DNA from: Lactobacillus acidophilus
GTDB taxonomy: Bacteria > Bacillota > Bacilli > Lactobacillales > Lactobacillaceae
Length of the DNA: 64,000 nt
Assembly (NCBI RefSeq): GCF_034298135.1
Contig: NZ_CP139575.1
Coordinates: 1,860,001 to 1,924,000 of the forward strand
Direction: 5' to 3'
Positions 4,722 to 31,666 of the stretch are shown piece after piece. Position numbers and translations under genes: made by a program. Each line of letters begins with the position of its first letter. The first letter of the stretch is position 1. The notes under the pieces were generated by a model, which did no database searches, was not told the origin of the DNA, and saw only the letters and a program-made list of their open reading frames with translations.

Positions 4722-5089
4722 ATGGAAAAGTTCATACCTGTAATTGTAGCGGTTGTACTAATGCTATTCGGAGCACTTGAGCTTTATTTAACGTATCGTT
4801 ATTCTAAAAACGTTAAGAAAATGAAGTATCAACCACCAACAGCTCCACTAGCTATTTGGAGTGGACTGGTATTTGGTCTCTTCTTCATCGCTGCCCTATT
4901 ATCGGCTTAGCTGGCGGACTTAAAAATATAAGCCGTGGGATATCAATTATTGGTAGTGTTTTATTCTGGATTGCGGCCGTTTTTGCTTTAATTAGAGCCG
5001 AAAAAATCAGAAAGCAACTTAAGGCAGAACACAAGCCACTTTCTAGCTCCCATCAAGCAATTGCTATATACGTGATTGCAGTTCTGTAA
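4722..5089 (+). pseudogene. Second small membrane protein gene, probably frameshifted in the middle
   Basis: The first frame (4722-4910) encodes 62 residues: one membrane helix, a basic loop, and a second helix that stops at LLSA. The neighbouring frame picks up at once with IGLAGGLKNISRG and a further helix (ISIIGSVLFWIAAVFALI), then a basic tail to the stop at 5089. Adding one A at the TTATCGG sequence near 4900 would give one continuous protein of about 122 residues. It follows the preceding gene, which has the same size and helix pattern. The two look like tandem relatives, each damaged by a single-base loss. Function unknown. Confidence 0.55.
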
Positions 5090-5112
5090 AAAATACAATA
5101 TTCGTGATTCGC

Positions 5113-5141
5113 ATCATTTCACTTGAGTTTTATTTTTTTGA
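5113..5141 (+). promoter_or_regulatory. Promoter of the candidate ncRNA
   Basis: A TTGAGT -35 box and a TAAAAT -10 box are separated by 17 bases. The expected start of transcription is around 5148-5156, just ahead of the first arm of the long-range helix of the candidate RNA. Confidence 0.6.
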
Positions 5142-5149
5142 ATGCTAAA

Positions 5150-5288
5150 ATCTTCATGTACCGCCACTAGTAGTAGTCATTTTCTCCGGTAGCGAAAATG
5201 TTATCTTCTATAATATGTGGTCAAAAGTGGCGGTAAAACACTGTGTGAGCCTAGTTCCGTTGTTGGTGGAATTAGGCTTTTTTGATGA
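5150..5288 (+). ncRNA. Candidate structured small RNA, unidentified
   Basis: An intergenic segment of about 135 bases has its own sigma-70-type promoter and ends in a strong terminator. TACCGCCACT (5159-5168) is perfectly complementary to AGTGGCGGTA (5226-5235), forming a 10-bp closing helix. Inside lies a perfect 7-bp hairpin, CATTTTC (5179-5185) with GAAAATG (5194-5200). The terminator hairpin AGCCTAGTTCC/GGAATTAGGCT (about 5249-5280) is followed by T6. No reading frame of any size fits. It does not match the conserved parts of SRP RNA, tmRNA, RNase P or common riboswitches that I know. It could also be a leader of the downstream DUF975 gene, though the terminator argues for an independent transcript. 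Confidence 0.6.
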
Positions 5289-5352
5289 TCTTTTTTGTTT
5301 ATAATTGTATATAATTGAAAGTAATACTATTTATATAAAAATGGGGGAAAAC

Positions 5353-6030
5353 ATGTCTACTAGAAGAGAATTAAAAGATGCTGCTAAACAAAGTCTTCGT
5401 GGTAATTGGGGCTGGGCAGTTATTGTATTTTTAATTAATGCTATTATTACTTGGCTTTTGACAGCGAGTGGTCATCATATTGATAGTTTCTATATGAATT
5501 ACGATGGAAATAATGTATTTTTTCAAATATTGAGTCCGGTAGGTGGAATTTTAGCTTGGGTTGCTGATTTCATTAGTTTAAGTTTGGCAATTTCATTTTT
5601 ACATTTAAGAGATAGTGAAGATACAACTGAAGAAAAGCCATACGTTGCTGCTTTTTCAGTTTTTACTGAAAATCGTTTTGGTCCGGAATGTATTAATTAT
5701 GTAATGACTACAATCTTTACATTCTTATGGACACTACTTTTAATTATTCCTGGAATTATTAAGAGTTATGCATATTCAATGACGCCCTATATCGTTAGCG
5801 ACATGGTGGCTAGTGGTAAGTCAGTCGGTGCTACAGACGGAATTAATGCAAGTAAAGAATTGATGAATGGTCACAAAATGGATTTGTTCATTTTTGATTT
5901 AAGTTTCATTGGTTGGTTTATCCTGGGAAGTATTCCAGCGGGTATCGGTCTTTTATGGGTGATCCCGTATTACCAAACTGCTAAAGCTAACTTCTACCGC
6001 AACTTAGCTGGCGATCAATTTTTAAAATAA
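5353..6030 (+). CDS. DUF975 family integral membrane protein
   Basis: This 225-residue membrane protein starts with the typical DUF975 opening MSTRRELKDAAKQSLRGNWGWAV and has about five hydrophobic segments. The ATG at 5353 is chosen because a strong GGGGGAAA ribosome binding site ends 2-3 bases before ACATG. The longer open frame starting at 5305 has no such site. The gene is single, with a terminator upstream (of the candidate ncRNA) and one just downstream. The family has no established function. Confidence 0.8.
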   Translation: MSTRRELKDAAKQSLRGNWGWAVIVFLINAIITWLLTASGHHIDSFYMNYDGNNVFFQILSPVGGILAWVADFISLSLAISFLHLRDSEDTTEEKPYVAAFSVFTENRFGPECINYVMTTIFTFLWTLLLIIPGIIKSYAYSMTPYIVSDMVASGKSVGATDGINASKELMNGHKMDLFIFDLSFIGWFILGSIPAGIGLLWVIPYYQTAKANFYRNLAGDQFLK

Positions 6031-25902: not shown

Positions 25903-25928
25903 TGAAGAGGATGTAGTCCTCTTTTTTG
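25903..25928 (+). terminator. Terminator
   Basis: A short hairpin AAGAGGA/TCCTCTT with a T tail closes the amidotransferase-permease operon and isolates it from the redox operon. Confidence 0.75.
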
Positions 25929-25965: not shown

Positions 25966-25994
25966 TTGACTTACAAAAAGTAAGATAATATACT
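25966..25994 (+). promoter_or_regulatory. Promoter of the thiol-redox operon
   Basis: TTGACT (25966-25971) and TATACT (25989-25994) are spaced by exactly 17 bases, a near-ideal promoter. The spacer itself contains an inverted repeat CTTAC-N5-GTAAG that could be an operator. Confidence 0.8.
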
Positions 25995-25995
25995 A

Positions 25996-26025
25996 AATCT
26001 ATTCAACGAACCTGTAGAATAGATT
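25996..26025. promoter_or_regulatory. Candidate operator: perfect 9-bp inverted repeat in the redox operon leader
   Basis: AATCTATTC (25996-26004), 12 bases, GAATAGATT (26017-26025). The arms are perfect and begin right after the -10 box, a good place for a repressor. The operon encodes an ArsR-type regulator, so autoregulation is the likely reading. ArsR-family operators are usually imperfect AT-rich palindromes. The repeat could also form a leader hairpin in the mRNA. Confidence 0.6.
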
Positions 26026-26036
26026 GAAGAGGAAAT

Positions 26037-26348
26037 ATGAAACTTTTAGAAAGTAATTTAAAAATAAATAATGCAGTTTTATATTTTAACAATGATGGAT
26101 GTTCTCTTTGTTATACCGAAAAGAAAGTTATCCATGATCTAGAGAAGAATATGAAGCAGCAAATACCAATTTATTCAATTGATGCACGTAATCAGAAAGA
26201 TTTAGTGAAAAAATACGAAATTTTATCCGTACCAAGTATCGTTTTTATTAAAAATGGTCAAAAGGTAGATCAGTTTAATAAATATTTAAATGGCAAACAA
26301 ATTGAAACAGTTTTTACTTATTATTTCGGGAGTTTAGACAATGACTAA
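26037..26348 (+). CDS. Thioredoxin-like protein
   Basis: This 103-residue protein has a thioredoxin fold. The redox motif is C22-S-L-C25 in NDGCSLCYTEK instead of the usual WCGPC, and the cis-proline is in VPSIVFI. The N-terminus has no signal peptide, so it is cytoplasmic. It is the first gene of an operon with thioredoxin reductase and a DsbA-family protein, so it is probably reduced by that TrxB. The AAGAGGAA ribosome binding site is close to the ATG. Its last 8 bases overlap the next small gene. Confidence 0.85.
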   Translation: MKLLESNLKINNAVLYFNNDGCSLCYTEKKVIHDLEKNMKQQIPIYSIDARNQKDLVKKYEILSVPSIVFIKNGQKVDQFNKYLNGKQIETVFTYYFGSLDND

Positions 26349-26484
26349 TAAGAAACAAGAAAAAGAAAACAAGTTACACATAATTAATGTTAACAATGAT
26401 GATAGTTTAAGTGCTGGTATTTGTGGACCTGATGGATGCGTTTTGGATTGGTCTAAGGCAGATAAAGGTGAAAAACATGAGTGA
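26341..26484 (+). CDS. 47-residue protein with CGPDGC motif, unknown function
   Basis: This small open frame has its ATG inside the end of the thioredoxin-like gene (8-base overlap), and its last 8 bases overlap the start of the ArsR-rhodanese gene. That double overlap strongly suggests real, coupled translation. The protein is charged and soluble: a Lys/Glu-rich start, then SAGICGPDGCVLDWSKAD. Cys28 and Cys33 are the only cysteines and flank Gly-Pro-Asp-Gly. With thioredoxin-type partners all round, the cysteine pair is probably redox-active, sulfur-carrying or metal-binding; that is inference. I do not recognise the family. Confidence 0.7.
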   Translation: MTNKKQEKENKLHIINVNNDDSLSAGICGPDGCVLDWSKADKGEKHE

Positions 26485-27130
26485 AGTAAATGAATTTCGT
26501 AATGAAGCGTATGATCAGGTAGTTAAAATTGGAAAAACGTTGGGAAATGTATCACGTTTAAAAATTTTAGATAATCTAGTTCAAAGTAAAAAATCTGTAG
26601 AAGAATTAGCTAGAGCAGTTGGCTTGAGTATAGGAACTACTTCTAAAAATTTACAACTTTTGAAAAAAGTTAACCTGGTTAAAGAAGAAAAAGAAAAGAA
26701 CTTTGTTTTTTATGCAATTGCTGACCAAAAAGTTAAGCAGCTATTGACGCTTTTAATTGATATCAGTGAAGAAAATATTCCTGAGTTAAAACAGCTTCAA
26801 AAAGATTTAAAAAAGCATAATTCAAATTTGATTAGTCTATCGATACCAGAATTGAGAAATAAGATAAAAAAAGAAGATATCTATATTATCGACTTACGTT
26901 CGAAAGATGAATTTGATACGGGGCATCTTCCTGGAGCTCATAATATTCCATTCAATAAAATTGATGATGAAATGAATAAATTGCCTCGAGATCGAGAGAT
27001 GGTTATCTATTGTCGTGGAAGACTTTGCCCATATTCGGATATTGTTGGGAATAAGCTAAAGATGGCCGGATATAACGTACAGACTTTTAACAATACAGTT
27101 TGGGAATGGCAACAAGCTGTTGAAGGTTAA
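26477..27130 (+). CDS. ArsR-family regulator fused to a rhodanese domain
   Basis: This protein has 217 residues. Residues about 12-100 form an ArsR/SmtB winged helix (IGKTLGNVSRLKILDNLVQ, then SIGTTSKNLQLLKKVNLV). Residues about 115-215 form a rhodanese domain (IIDLRSKDEFDTGHLPGAHNIPF) with the active-site loop C179-R-G-R-L-C184. There is no cysteine in the DNA-binding part, so no ArsR-type metal site. Sensing may go through the rhodanese cysteines, for example by persulfide or disulfide formation. ATG 26477 with AAAGGTG upstream is the natural start; the longer frame from 26411 only runs through the preceding small gene. It probably controls its own operon. Confidence 0.87.
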   Translation: MSEVNEFRNEAYDQVVKIGKTLGNVSRLKILDNLVQSKKSVEELARAVGLSIGTTSKNLQLLKKVNLVKEEKEKNFVFYAIADQKVKQLLTLLIDISEENIPELKQLQKDLKKHNSNLISLSIPELRNKIKKEDIYIIDLRSKDEFDTGHLPGAHNIPFNKIDDEMNKLPRDREMVIYCRGRLCPYSDIVGNKLKMAGYNVQTFNNTVWEWQQAVEG

Positions 27131-27152
27131 TGAAAATATAAGGGGAATAGAT

Positions 27153-28085
27153 ATGAAAAAATATGATGTAGCAATTATTGGAGCTGGGCCTGGTGGTATG
27201 GCGGCTGCGTTATATGCAGCAAGAGCTAATTTAACGGTAGCAATGATTGATCGAGGCGTTTATGGCGGACAAATGAACAACACTGCTGAGGTAGAAAATT
27301 ATCCAGGTTTTCCATCGATTTTAGGACCTGAGCTTGGAGAAAAGATGTATCAAAACACTGTTAAGCAAGGTGTTAACTTTGTTTATGGGGATGTTCAAGG
27401 GATAGAAGTTAAAGACGACAAAAGAATCGTTAAATTAGGCAGTGAAGACAGTGACATTGAAACGAAAGCTGTAATTATTGGTACAGGTTCGTCTAATCGA
27501 AAATTAGGAGTTCCCGGTGAAGATGAATATTCGGGCAAAGGTGTTTCCTACTGCGCAGTTTGTGATGGTGCTTTCTTTAAGAATGAAAATGTCGTAGTTG
27601 TAGGTGGTGGTGACTCAGCTGTTTCTGAGGGACTTTATTTAGCTAACGTTACTGATAATGTAAATGTCATTCATCGACGTGATCAATTACGTGCTGAACA
27701 AGTTTTACAAAAACGTGCTTTTAAAAATCCAAAGATGGACTTTACTTGGGATAGTGAAGTAAAAGAAATCATTGGTGACGAAAATAAAATGACTGGTGTA
27801 AAGGTTCATAACAAGAAAACTGGAAAAGACGAGACTATAGATGCAAACGGAGCTTTTATTTACATTGGGAATATTCCAAATAGTGAACCTTTTAGAGACT
27901 TAAATATTACTGATAAAGATGGCTGGATTTTGACTAACGATCAAATGGAAACTGAAGTACCAGGAATCTTTGCAATCGGTGATGTTCGTAAAAAGAAATT
28001 ACGTCAAATTATTACTGCCGTTAATGATGGTGGTATTGCCGGTCAAAACGCTTATGAATACATTCAAAAACTTACTGAAAATTAG
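27153..28085 (+). CDS. trxB: Thioredoxin-disulfide reductase
   Basis: This 310-residue flavoprotein passes electrons from NADPH through FAD to thioredoxin-type proteins. It shows the FAD-binding GAGPGGMAAALYAARA, the redox pair Cys134-Ala-Val-Cys137 in SYCAVCDGAFF, the NADPH-binding GGGDSAVSEG and the C-terminal FAIGDVRKKKLRQI. ATG 27153 follows a strong AGGGGAA site; the extra codons before it are not supported. It lies 22 bases after the regulator and 22 bases before the DsbA-family gene. This is probably not the housekeeping copy, since it sits in a dedicated operon; that cannot be checked here. Confidence 0.93.
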   Translation: MKKYDVAIIGAGPGGMAAALYAARANLTVAMIDRGVYGGQMNNTAEVENYPGFPSILGPELGEKMYQNTVKQGVNFVYGDVQGIEVKDDKRIVKLGSEDSDIETKAVIIGTGSSNRKLGVPGEDEYSGKGVSYCAVCDGAFFKNENVVVVGGGDSAVSEGLYLANVTDNVNVIHRRDQLRAEQVLQKRAFKNPKMDFTWDSEVKEIIGDENKMTGVKVHNKKTGKDETIDANGAFIYIGNIPNSEPFRDLNITDKDGWILTNDQMETEVPGIFAIGDVRKKKLRQIITAVNDGGIAGQNAYEYIQKLTEN

Positions 28086-28107
28086 TTAAGTAAACAAGGA
28101 GATAATC

Positions 28108-28761
28108 ATGGAAATTAAATATTGGTCTGATATTGCTTGTCCATTTTGCTACATCGGTTCTACAAGAATGAAGAAAGCCATGAAAGAAGTGGGTATTTAT
28201 GATGATACTAAGCTTGAATTAAAAGCTTTTCAATTAAATCCAATGGAAGCCAAAACTGCTAAAAGTGGCGAATATATAAATCACTTTACGGGTGGAAAAA
28301 AAGAGTTAGAAAATCGTGCTAGACAACAAATGGCATATATAACTGAAATGGCAAAGGGAGAAGGTTTAGAATTTCACTTAGATAAGGTTGTACCAACTAA
28401 TACTATGGATGCACATAGATTGATTAAGTTGGTAGAAGCAAAGTACGATCGTGATTTAACTGAAAAGTTAATTGCTCGTCTTTACAAAGTTTACTTTACT
28501 GATGGAGAATCAATTGCTGATTTAGATGTCTTAACTAAGGCTGCAGTTGAAGTTGGAATGAAAGAGGATGAAGTTAAAAAGCTTTTAAATTCAAGTAAGT
28601 ACCAAAGAGAAGTCGTTACTGATGAGTATGAAGCTGAACAATCTGGTATTCATGCTGCTCCCTTCTTTGTTATTAATAATAAATATGGTATTAGCGGAGC
28701 CCAACCATACGAAGTTTTTGTTAATGCATTAAGGAAAGTAAAAGAAGAGGAAGAAAAGTGA
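28108..28761 (+). CDS. DsbA-family oxidoreductase (FrnE-like)
   Basis: This 217-residue protein is of the DsbA/2-hydroxychromene-2-carboxylate isomerase-like group. It has the redox motif C11-P-F-C14 in YWSDIACPFCYIGS, a helical insert, and the cis-Pro region SGIHAAPFFVINNKYGISGAQP. No signal peptide is present, so it acts in the cytoplasm, unlike classical DsbA. AAGGAGAT precedes the ATG. Placed after trxB in the redox operon, it may handle disulfides or react with electrophiles under oxidative stress. Confidence 0.87.
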   Translation: MEIKYWSDIACPFCYIGSTRMKKAMKEVGIYDDTKLELKAFQLNPMEAKTAKSGEYINHFTGGKKELENRARQQMAYITEMAKGEGLEFHLDKVVPTNTMDAHRLIKLVEAKYDRDLTEKLIARLYKVYFTDGESIADLDVLTKAAVEVGMKEDEVKKLLNSSKYQREVVTDEYEAEQSGIHAAPFFVINNKYGISGAQPYEVFVNALRKVKEEEEK

Positions 28762-28817
28762 GAGTACTGTTACTCAGTATTGTTGTGCTACTTATAATAA
28801 TATTATTTTTTAAATAA
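28758..28817 (+). CDS. Possible 19-residue membrane peptide
   Basis: A GTG overlaps the stop of the DsbA-family gene (GTGA) and opens a 19-codon frame reading MRVLLLSIVVLLIIILFFK, a single hydrophobic helix ending in Lys. GAGGAAG lies at ribosome-binding distance. The end-to-start overlap matches the style of the rest of the operon. A frame this short can arise by chance, so this is tentative. Confidence 0.35.
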   Translation: MRVLLLSIVVLLIIILFFK

Positions 28818-28877: not shown

Positions 28878-28912
28878 AAAAATGCATCAGCTTACGCTGA
28901 TGCATTTTTTGT
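28878..28912. terminator. Bidirectional terminator
   Basis: A perfect hairpin AAATGCATCAGC/GCTGATGCATTT flanked by A and T runs lies between the convergent redox operon and asnA. Confidence 0.93.
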
Positions 28913-28919
28913 ACCATTA

Positions 28920-29930
28920 TTAAAGTAAATGAATGTGGTCAGATTCGCACTTTTCAATCATTTCTTCTGGCCAAATACTTGCTTGTACCTCACCGATATG
29001 AGCCTTACCGAGTAAAAGCATGCAGAGACGTGATTGACCGATACCACCCCCGATGGTGTAAGGTAATTTACCTTCTAAAAGCATCTTGTGGAATGGTAAT
29101 TTTTCACGATCTTCACAATGAGCTTTCTTAAGTTGTTCACGTAAACTTTCTTCACTAACACGAATACCCATTGATGAGACTTCAATTTTACTTTGAAGTG
29201 GTTCATACCAGAAAATTAAATCACCGTTTAATTGCCAGTCATCGTAGTCAGGTGCACGACCATCATGTGGCTTGCCACTACGCTTTAATTTATCACCAAT
29301 TTTCATAATGAAGACGGCTTTTTCTTCTTTAGCAATTTTATTTTCACGTTCTTCTGGTGAAAGCTCAGGCCAACGATCTTCTAATTCTTGGGTAGTAATA
29401 AATGATACGTGATCACCTAAACGGTAAGTAGAACCAGGATAACGAGCTGTAACTAATTTTTCTGTAGCTTTGATAGCTTTGAAGATTTTCATTACAGTAA
29501 CTTCAAGTGTATCTGTATTCCGTTCTTCTTTAGCGATAATCTTTTCCCAGTCCCATTGATCAACGTAGATAGAGTGGAAGTTATCTAAATCTTCATCACG
29601 GCGAATAGCATTCATGTTGGTGTATAAACCTTCGTGCATGCCGAAACCATATCTTTTAAGTGCTAATCTTTTCCATTTGGCAAGAGAATGCACAACTTCA
29701 ATTTCTGAATCAGGAATAGCCTTCATATCAAAGCCAACAGGACGTTCAACACCGTTTAAGTTGTCGTTCAATCCACTAGCTTTTTCAACAAACATTGGAG
29801 CAGACATTCTTTGTACTCCAAGAATAGAAGCGAGCTTATCTTGGAAAGTTTCACGAATATAAACAATAGCTGCTTCAGTATCACGAACAGTTAATGTTGG
29901 ATGGTAATCTTTAGGTAAAATAAGTTTCAT
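28920..29930 (-). CDS. asnA: Aspartate--ammonia ligase (asparagine synthetase A)
   Basis: This 336-residue enzyme makes asparagine from aspartate, ammonia and ATP in the cytoplasm. It resembles class II aminoacyl-tRNA synthetases in fold. Seen are [26 protein letters not shown], the central [13 protein letters not shown], and the C-terminal ATP-site segment [28 protein letters not shown]. The length matches AsnA. An asparagine T-box lies in its leader, so it is expressed when uncharged tRNA-Asn builds up. Confidence 0.96.
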
Positions 29931-29969: not shown

Positions 29970-30240
29970 GAAAAAGCCCTTCGCTCCCTAAATAAAAATA
30001 GGGACGAAAGGCTTTTTTCCGCGGTACCACCCAACTTGTCTAATAATAGACCTCTTATGGAGCACCATCATGCTCCACCGGTGTGGTAACGTACCGGAGA
30101 CGTCTCAACCTACTTTAAGAATTATTATTTCGGTGAGCTGCTAAAAGTGTTTTTCAATAATCCAGGGTCTATTAGTTTCACACTAGCACTAATTCACTGA
30201 AAAGAATTAGATTATTTACTCGTCTTTTTCATAGCTTTTT
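29970..30240 (-). promoter_or_regulatory. T-box riboswitch (asparagine) controlling asnA
   Basis: On the minus strand the 14-nt T-box core GGGTGGTACCGCG lies at 30020-30032, followed by a strong terminator (GCCTTTCGTCCCTA/TAGGGAGCGAAGGGC with T tail, about 29971-30018). Upstream, the stem I strand GAGTAAATAATC pairs with GATTATT. The following specifier loop GAAAAACAC offers AAC (30149-30151), an Asn codon, consistent with the gene controlled. tRNA-Asn without amino acid would stabilise the antiterminator. Confidence 0.93.
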
Positions 30241-30363
30241 AATTTGTTTATATGTATTTAACATTATTTTGAACAAAAAAGCAAGAAAAAAATGTGATAT
30301 GATATTTAGGAAAGCGGTTTATTTATAGTAATATAAAAATTTTTATTATTTTAGAGGATAAGA

Positions 30364-31425: not shown

Positions 31426-31459
31426 AAGATGGTATTTCCAAGGAAATACCATCTTTTTT
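31426..31459 (+). terminator. mupG terminator
   Basis: A perfect hairpin AAGATGGTATTTCC/GGAAATACCATCTT with a two-base loop and T tail. Confidence 0.93.
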
Positions 31460-31509
31460 GTTAAAACAAAAAGCGATGAATTATTCATTCATCGCTCCTA
31501 TAAAATTTA

Positions 31510-31583
31510 TCGGGAAAACAGGATTCGAACCTGCGACCCCCTGGTCCCAAACCAGGTGCTCTACCAAACTGAGCCATTTCCCG
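31510..31583 (-). tRNA. tRNA-Pro (anticodon TGG)
   Basis: A complete cloverleaf on the minus strand. The acceptor CGGGAAA pairs with TTTCCCG, the anticodon arm is CCTGG-TTTGGGA-CCAGG with anticodon TGG, and the T-arm carries GGTTCGAATCC. The 3' CCA is not encoded. Confidence 0.96.
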
Positions 31584-31592
31584 TTTTAAAGA

Positions 31593-31666
31593 TGCGCCCT
31601 GAAGGATTTGAACCTTCAACCTTCTGATTCGTAGTCAGACACTCTATCCAGTTGCGCTAAGGGCGC
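31593..31666 (-). tRNA. tRNA-Arg (anticodon ACG)
   Basis: A complete cloverleaf on the minus strand. The acceptor GCGCCCT pairs with AGGGCGC, the anticodon arm is TCTGA-CTACGAA-TCAGA giving anticodon ACG, and the T-arm carries GGTTCAAATCC. It lies 9 bases upstream of tRNA-Pro in one transcript. CCA is not encoded. Confidence 0.96.

Follow-up and report, generated by a model that had tools for sequence, protein, structure and literature searches.

What does a 47-residue protein with only two cysteines, both in the hexapeptide CGPDGC, do in an operon of thiol-redox enzymes? The question is raised by a 64,000-nucleotide stretch of Lactobacillus acidophilus DNA (the window; positions 1860001-1924000 of NZ_CP139575.1, the one 1.98-Mb contig of its genome), in which five genes at 26037-28761 encode a thioredoxin-like protein (TRXA), the 47-amino-acid (aa) protein, an ArsR-rhodanese fusion, a thioredoxin reductase (TrxB) and a DsbA-like protein. 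From comparative sequence analysis we conclude that the small protein is very probably a FrnE-type CX4C tail made as a separate gene, and that it probably acts in trans, relaying TrxB/thioredoxin electrons to a tailless FrnE under a rhodanese-loop sensor. The five genes are as follows.

26037..26348, + strand: thioredoxin-like TRXA, 103 aa; CSLC at 26100-26111.
26341..26484, + strand: 47-aa CGPDGC protein, putative free-standing FrnE-type CX4C tail; motif codons at 26422-26439.
26477..27130, + strand: ArsR-rhodanese regulator, 217 aa from ATG; CRGRLC (C179/C184) codons at 27011-27028.
27153..28085, + strand: thioredoxin reductase TrxB, 310 aa from ATG, assigned by family scan.
28108..28761, + strand: FrnE-type DsbA-family oxidoreductase lacking a C-terminal CX4C tail, 217 aa; CPFC at 28138-28149.

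The first-pass annotation of this DNA had described the last product as a cytoplasmic DsbA-type protein; it does match DSBA (PF01323) in a Pfam/NCBIfam scan and is, more exactly, a tailless FrnE, an identity that had been missed. Its closest solved relatives by sequence are D. radiodurans FrnE (drFrnE; E 4.6e-34) and SCO1869, and the first six structure matches of an AlphaFold model (three-row alignment, pLDDT 85, pTM 0.83) were five drFrnE entries and SCO1869, with template modelling (TM) scores of 0.83-0.89 by query length. The protein has the DsbA-like thioredoxin fold closest to FrnE and, at residues 11-14, a CPFC version of the CP(W/F)C site; its N-terminus reads MEIKYWSDIACPFCYIG, and whether it is a signal peptide was judged from these letters alone. 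The FrnE C-terminal CXXXXC tail is missing in cis, C11 and C14 being its sole cysteines. An actinobacterial FrnE relative runs on past the point where the window protein stops, into GICGPDGCEI, and SCO1869 carries GAEACGPDGCAV at residues 225-236 of 239. By sequence and predicted fold, then, the window DsbA is a member of the FrnE subfamily without the C-terminal tail. The review PMC8945050 reports that a C-terminal CXXXXC occurs in many FrnEs but not all, that in every drFrnE structure one molecule's tail sits at another molecule's active site, that a Cys244-Cys22 intermolecular disulfide was observed with dithiothreitol, and that reduction of 5,5'-dithiobis(2-nitrobenzoic acid) by NADPH and TrxR dropped upon mutation or deletion of the tail cysteines.

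The small protein scored over no Pfam/NCBIfam cut-off (one sub-threshold Pfam match, E 0.025), and a protein search of 5.8 billion sequences returned ten relatives at E up to 1, nine of them with ICGPDGC; the tenth, P0007, has an incomplete motif and was excluded from the small-protein alignment. Protein searches with a plasmid-type small protein and a thioredoxin-fused form gave two relatives and one (P0011), respectively. At the DNA level, a degenerate codon pattern for CGPDGC occurred at 36 places in 31 of 397 Lactobacillaceae genomes, compared with 2 places for a reversed control. When the 35 places other than the window were fetched with their flanks, 29 (24 genomes, 10 genera) proved to hold the motif within a short open reading frame (ORF) or as the end of a thioredoxin and to have a DsbA/FrnE gene no more than 4.5 kb away; five lacked such an ORF and one (L105) looks like chance. 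The small gene lies directly 3' of DsbA at 22 of these 29 places, one metallo-β-lactamase (MBL)-fold gene further 3' at two (L083, L084), divergent from DsbA at one (L100) and ahead of the thioredoxin, as first gene of the operon, at two (L081, L087), and at the remaining two the motif is fused to the thioredoxin C-terminus (L086, 136 aa; L098, 159 aa). The MBL-fold gene of L083 (5268-5915), which is GloB/sulfur-dioxygenase-like below cut-off, separates the CGPDGC gene from a FrnE homologue of 43% identity. Nonsynonymous divergence (dN) was below synonymous divergence (dS) in all 12 small-gene pairs with an estimate, at ratios of 0.03-0.46 (14 pairs compared, two yielding no dS). Examples are L074/L076 (0.024 versus 0.85) and L076/L139 (0.057 versus 1.23); the weakest are L101/L102 (0.48 versus 1.05) and L095/L080 (0.021 versus 0.047, three differences). 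Judged by these codon patterns, the 47-aa protein is a real gene. Small genes of this type are annotated 'hypothetical' or not listed at all. The first-pass description of a 'novel' small cysteine protein was thus right about the gene and missed what motif, neighbourhood and fusion or fission together point to, its match to the FrnE CXXXXC tail.

To escape the bias of a motif search, we searched 301 Lactobacillaceae genomes with the window DsbA itself, which gave 43 matches spread over 32 genomes. Twenty of them, the window protein among these, reach 50% identity or more; every one lacks the tail, and every operon concerned includes a CGP[D/E]GC gene, which in G279 is fused to the operon thioredoxin. 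Among the 23 homologues below 50%, three carry a CX4C tail in cis (L147 CEGGSC, L148 CDGDGC and L150 CSTDGC; 35-39% identity), two (L083, L084) are followed by the small gene after one intervening gene, and 17 have neither a tail nor a same-strand small gene nearby, L100 with its divergent copy being one of these; one of the 43 matches (G257, 142 residues) was left out of the fetched loci, and the looser D/E pattern matches nowhere in that genome. No CGxxGC occurs in any frame of the 15 fetched stretches L144-L158, and none of the three cis-tailed homologues has a CGxxGC gene within its 6.6-6.7 kb. In a 49-row FrnE tree, a single clade of 28 rows (support 100/99) takes in every separate-tail row above 50% identity, with L083 and L084 outside it; five cis-tail rows adjoin the clade (81/92), weakly placed given long branches and a midpoint root. 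Most tree rows came from the motif search, so the tree's 31/31 is biased and the unbiased figure is the 20/20 above. Plasmid FrnEs were sampled as four picked among the 50 listed of 826 plasmid matches, and both of those with 60-66% identity are accompanied by a small gene: an adjoining CGPNGC gene, annotated hypothetical, in Pediococcus (65.7%), and an overlapping CGPKGC ORF, absent from the PLSDB table, in L. salivarius (60%). The Pantoea plasmid FrnE (31%) has its tail in cis. Given the CGPKGC and CGPNGC forms, the motif is better written CGPxGC, and D/E patterns undercount it.

Several observations weigh against a detached tail serving FrnE. Three tailless homologues (L144-L146; 44-46% identity) fall inside the separate-tail clade and have no CGxxGC gene in their 6.6-6.7 kb; their genomes (G276, G262 and G045) may reflect loss or a carrier of another kind, and a genome-wide D/E-pattern search of them gave one candidate, a short frame ending CGNEGCLV (L207) elsewhere in G262. 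The fourth plasmid FrnE, from Ilyobacter (32%), has neither a cis tail nor a small gene, and S. roseofulvus FrnE lacks the tail according to the excerpts of PMC8945050, so the tail is not obligatory. The small-protein profile did not match FrnE tails significantly (SCO1869 at E 6.2 and 2.7 in PDB profile searches), and in the search giving 2.7 two cellulases (0.05, 0.24) and SbtB (1.2) scored better. The joining of the motif to thioredoxin in two genomes means that thioredoxin, not FrnE, may be its main partner. In excerpted expression studies the L. sakei ArsR-rhodanese LSA0217 and the adjacent trxA1 (LSA0218) are both listed as lowered on ribose (PMC3146418), and a FrnE of L. johnsonii PF01, homologue not specified, is named among bile-induced proteins (PMC7931105). 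Because the profile scores are not significant, the case for a detached tail rests on the identical hexapeptide, the replacement of cis by trans, the neighbourhood and the fusions, which together make it, in our judgement, highly likely that the 47-aa protein is a FrnE-type tail encoded separately.

The gene content is that given by the first-pass annotation, with which Pfam/NCBIfam scans agree, and its junctions were reproduced from the coordinates: overlaps of 8 bases between TRXA and the small gene and between the small gene and ArsR-rhodanese, gaps of 22 bases on either side of TrxB, and a 4-base overlap of the DsbA-like gene end with a 19-aa frame. That frame had been put forward as a possible membrane peptide, which is unsupported because no counterpart follows DsbA in the six related loci inspected. 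The remaining features of the locus, with the hairpins that bound the operon on either side, are listed below.

25904..25924, + strand: terminator-like hairpin 3' of the upstream permease gene.
25966..25994, + strand: sigma-70-type promoter TTGACT-N17-TATACT, its spacer containing the palindrome CTTACAAAAAGTAAG.
25996..26025, no strand assigned: putative ArsR-rhodanese operator, a perfect 9-bp inverted repeat, AATCTATTC-N12-GAATAGATT.
28758..28817, + strand: 19-aa hydrophobic reading frame, probably not a gene; not conserved.
28878..28909, no strand assigned (reported on the - strand): palindromic terminator-like hairpin common to the operon and a convergent asnA-like gene.

These data support 26037-28761 as a single thiol-redox operon that includes a regulator gene of its own. 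The gene set, whose conserved order had been proposed as a check, recurs in variants on plasmids and across ten genera of Lactobacillaceae; L. hamsteri (L032) has the same order as the window operon, TRXA-small-ArsRRhod-TrxB-DsbA, with its DsbA frame split into two ORFs. Among the literature matches listed we found no prior description of the operon or of a separate FrnE tail, which is weak evidence of absence as most subscription journals lie outside the coverage. Beyond the operon, the asnA-like gene (28920-29930) is preceded by a T-box leader (RF00230, 120 bits) at 29997-30241 on the - strand, and a tRNA-Pro(tgg) and tRNA-Arg(acg) pair lies within 31510-31666 (-), the first overlapped by a probably spurious ORF (31458-31589).

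The promoter claimed earlier held up as the top-scoring of 13 candidates in the region, although shuffled sequence gives as many (14.1). Close variants of its spacer palindrome CTTACAAAAAGTAAG occur in L032, L086, L098, L102 and plasmid loci. One base past the -10 begins the dyad with its perfect 9-bp arms; a scan of 57 sources gave dyads like it, at up to three substitutions, in 14, a count that includes the window, L149 (which duplicates L102), copies that are nearly identical, and L107, where the dyad lies within a coding stretch and is probably chance. At this threshold loci such as L081, L082, L085 and L087 gave no match; by eye, clear versions are present in L086 and L098, a degenerate one in L032, and one or two in each of the plasmid loci L188, L209 and L212. 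The genome has a single copy of the operator core CTATTC-N12-GAATAG, and a regulon elsewhere was rejected on that basis, for the exact core as distinct from looser sites. The regulator passes curated cut-offs for HTH_5 (25.7 bits, cut-off 22) and Rhodanese (PF00581) and is also assigned to the ArsR/SmtB family (NF033788). C179 and C184 (CRGxLC) are invariant in all 39 aligned ArsR-rhodanese proteins, across which no cysteine in the ArsR domain is conserved; the window regulator has no cysteine there and carries CRGRLC in the rhodanese loop. Membership of SqrR/BigR was rejected (NF040642, 38.1 bits against a cut-off of 155, and the same lack of a conserved ArsR-domain cysteine in 39 sequences). 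In excerpts of PMC9774590, SqrR and BigR sense through two cysteines of the protein itself; a different mechanism must therefore operate here, the simplest being one based on the rhodanese loop. The earlier proposal of self-regulation by rhodanese sensing stands to the extent of a regulator gene, a candidate operator and that loop as the only possible cysteine sensor.

The redox partners are less standard. TRXA matches Trx (PF00085); it was rejected as a canonical TrxA, whose active site is WCGPC, by its CSLC site and its score against the TIGR01068 equivalog (41.9 bits, cut-off 96.8). The operon thioredoxins of L082 (3231-3542) and L085 (3250-3549) read ACGHGY at the active site and seem to have lost its second cysteine, so that some versions of the operon may do without a dithiol thioredoxin. 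TrxB exceeds its equivalog cut-off (TIGR01292, 365.4 versus 343.45 bits); among 13 Pyr_redox_2 matches in the host genome one other is TrxB-sized (1148876-1149739, a 314-aa frame), and the operon TrxB may therefore be an accessory copy.

We propose that the operon forms a compact, self-regulated, cytoplasmic disulfide-reducing system. Electrons from NADPH would enter through the operon TrxB and pass to the thioredoxin-like protein, directly to the 47-aa protein, or to both; the CX4C pair of the latter would then act in trans to regenerate the tailless FrnE at CPFC, and this enzyme may in turn reduce mixed disulfides, persulfides or S-thioallylated protein cysteines. ArsR-rhodanese would repress from the dyad just downstream of the -10 and be released when its CRGRLC cysteines take up sulfane sulfur or form a disulfide, the stress handled being reactive sulfur, perhaps allicin-type thiosulfinates. 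In excerpts of PMC10991534, Cys105 and Cys110 of SbtB pair reversibly in a disulfide hairpin, and TrxA reduces it; this supports CGP[D/E]GC as a thioredoxin-addressable redox hairpin. Taken by itself, the relay role is somewhat better than an even prospect, and reactive sulfur as the trigger is an evenly balanced proposition.

The main competitor to a relay to FrnE is that the 47-aa protein is itself a substrate, titrator or sensor peptide of the thioredoxin system, or a persulfide or sulfane-sulfur acceptor for the rhodanese, an explanation we consider unlikely yet worth keeping in view. The TrxA-reduced SbtB switch sets a precedent, the motif is fused to thioredoxin in L086, L098 and the relative P0011, the window gene sits between TRXA and the regulator, and the loop CRGRLC is itself a CX4C. 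Such a role would leave unexplained why the small gene is directly 3' of FrnE at 22 of the 29 in-frame places, why the motif accompanies 20 of 20 close FrnEs, at some loci with no thioredoxin or TrxB alongside (L074: ArsRRhod-DsbA-CGPDGC), and why tailed FrnEs hold such a motif in cis.

A zinc-, cadmium- or copper-binding peptide in a metal-stress operon is improbable. The NF033788 assignment is to a family known as ArsR/SmtB, D. radiodurans frnE is induced by cadmium (excerpts of PMC8945050), and a 'putative metal homeostasis protein' lies slightly downstream on the L. salivarius plasmid; yet the 39 regulators share no ArsR-domain cysteine (cysteines alone being examined as ligands), the small protein has just two, and most loci contain thioredoxin-system genes (unlabelled neighbouring ORFs being left unannotated). 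We give just as little weight to an ordinary thioredoxin/FrnE oxidative-stress operon in which tail fission left the small gene behind as a non-essential remnant without a role of its own: L144-L146 manage without it and, in the excerpts of PMC8945050, tailless FrnEs occur in some bacteria, whereas dN below dS in 12 of 12 pairs, retention in all 20 close relatives and on plasmids, and survival of the motif through moves within the operon and thioredoxin fusion in two genomes are not what a leftover would show.

Compared with known systems, the window FrnE is like drFrnE (DR_0659; PDB 5cnw, 5co3, 5cp1) and SCO1869 (3gl5) in its DsbA-type fold and CP(W/F)C site. The CX4C element of drFrnE reaches another molecule's active site, and SCO1869 has the same CGPDGC near its end; in both the element lies within the enzyme, whereas here the enzyme stops short and a separate gene encodes the motif. 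The excerpts of PMC8945050 describe no dedicated ArsR-rhodanese/TrxB operon for DR_0659. The R-loop of SbtB (Synechocystis slr1513; CGPEGC, Cys105-Cys110) has the same type of hexapeptide, but as the C-terminal loop of a PII-like protein it is a regulatory switch and not, like the proposed carrier, an electron carrier. The regulator would share ArsR family and sulfur-linked sensing with the persulfide-sensing repressors SqrR and BigR, its cysteine pair lying in an added rhodanese domain and theirs in the ArsR protein itself.

Also close are the allicin-tolerance sets of Pseudomonas, given in excerpts of PMC7119367 as osmC-sdr-tetR-dsbA-trx plus ahpD-oye-4-ot-kefF-kefC. Resistance clones there hold osmC, sdr, tetR, a frnE-like dsbA, trx, ahpD and oye; dsbA overexpressed alone raised allicin resistance, and insertions in dsbA or trx lowered it. 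A similar cluster lies on the Pantoea agglomerans onion plasmid pCB1C (L210), where thioredoxin, TetR, carboxymuconolactone decarboxylase and alkene reductase genes accompany a DsbA (4980-5681) that, unlike the window FrnE, keeps a cis CX4C tail (Cys226, Cys231; QACGADGCSI). Shared features are FrnE-like DsbA and thioredoxin genes on mobile DNA, OsmC genes 3' of DsbA in L032 (two PF02566) and L086 (one, with a similar ORF scoring nothing), and a glutathione-reductase-like gene on lactic acid bacterial plasmids; measured against the allicin cluster, the window operon has dsbA and trx, and OsmC appears in the relatives L032 and L086 only. The regulator is ArsR-rhodanese here and TetR there, and the window operon is without AhpD, alkene reductase and Kef genes.

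The module is mobile. Its version with three thioredoxins is carried on plasmids, the stretch of DsbA plus small gene matching 76 PLSDB records at 95% identity or more, from Leuconostoc, Lactiplantibacillus, Weissella, Levilactobacillus, Latilactobacillus and Pediococcus; on pKB290-5 the small gene ('hypothetical protein') is followed by an NAD(P)/FAD oxidoreductase whose L095 counterpart scores best, below cut-off, as glutathione reductase. Among the matches listed, many module plasmids come from kimchi or pickles: kimchi was the source of 32 of the 60 listed among the 76, versus 5 of the 60 listed among 987 control plasmids, with sources counted by eye, a different genus mix in the two sets and a control consisting of one gene, itself of module-plasmid origin (NZ_CP037937, among the listed controls, has the module too). 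Within genera, again among the matches listed, the excess was seen in Lactiplantibacillus (7/15 module versus 0/16 control, Fisher p 0.0024), and Leuconostoc showed no difference (13/19 versus 4/5). Given the OsmC neighbours and the Pseudomonas and Pantoea clusters, reactive sulfur compounds of Allium and cabbage are a plausible inducer and target of the module.

Outside the family, the small protein was rejected as a Bacillota-wide gene: a 398-genome draw from the phylum gave 45 places against 23 for the reversed control. Read in all frames, the 44 non-window places included one FrnE with a cis tail (L169); by eye the rest looked out of frame or within unrelated reading frames, the exception being L201, where a short ORF ends in CGPDGCEISR. 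A C-terminal CGPDGC tail is also present on proteins from metagenome-assembled genomes of Chloroflexota and Armatimonadota (L034-L042), L037 resembling, below cut-off, the NCBIfam 'ResA-like WAxxUGC motif-containing protein' and both L034 and L037 having a TPR-like stretch before the tail; perhaps these are the same CX4C element on another Trx-like family. More tentatively, and as a possibility short of probable, CGPxGC proteins of about 40-50 residues could be a new type of free-standing redoxin. Each would be a portable CX4C hairpin of less than thioredoxin or glutaredoxin size, moving TrxB electrons to FrnE in trans and able to be attached to thioredoxin (L086, L098), to FrnE in many bacteria or to further Trx-like proteins (L037 in Chloroflexota). 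With an ArsR-rhodanese sensor it would belong to a mobile reactive-sulfur tolerance module of vegetable-fermenting lactic acid bacteria.

If the detached tail does act as such a relay, an enzyme-bound redox tail would have become a separate, tiny and diffusible electron carrier, and the operon would offer a clean system for FrnE tail function, in which the amounts of tail and enzyme can be varied independently by titration. Small genes now annotated 'hypothetical' or left unlisted would gain a likely role, and the thiol-trapping sulfur compounds of garlic, onion and cabbage would be a candidate reason why the module travels on the plasmids of food lactic acid bacteria.

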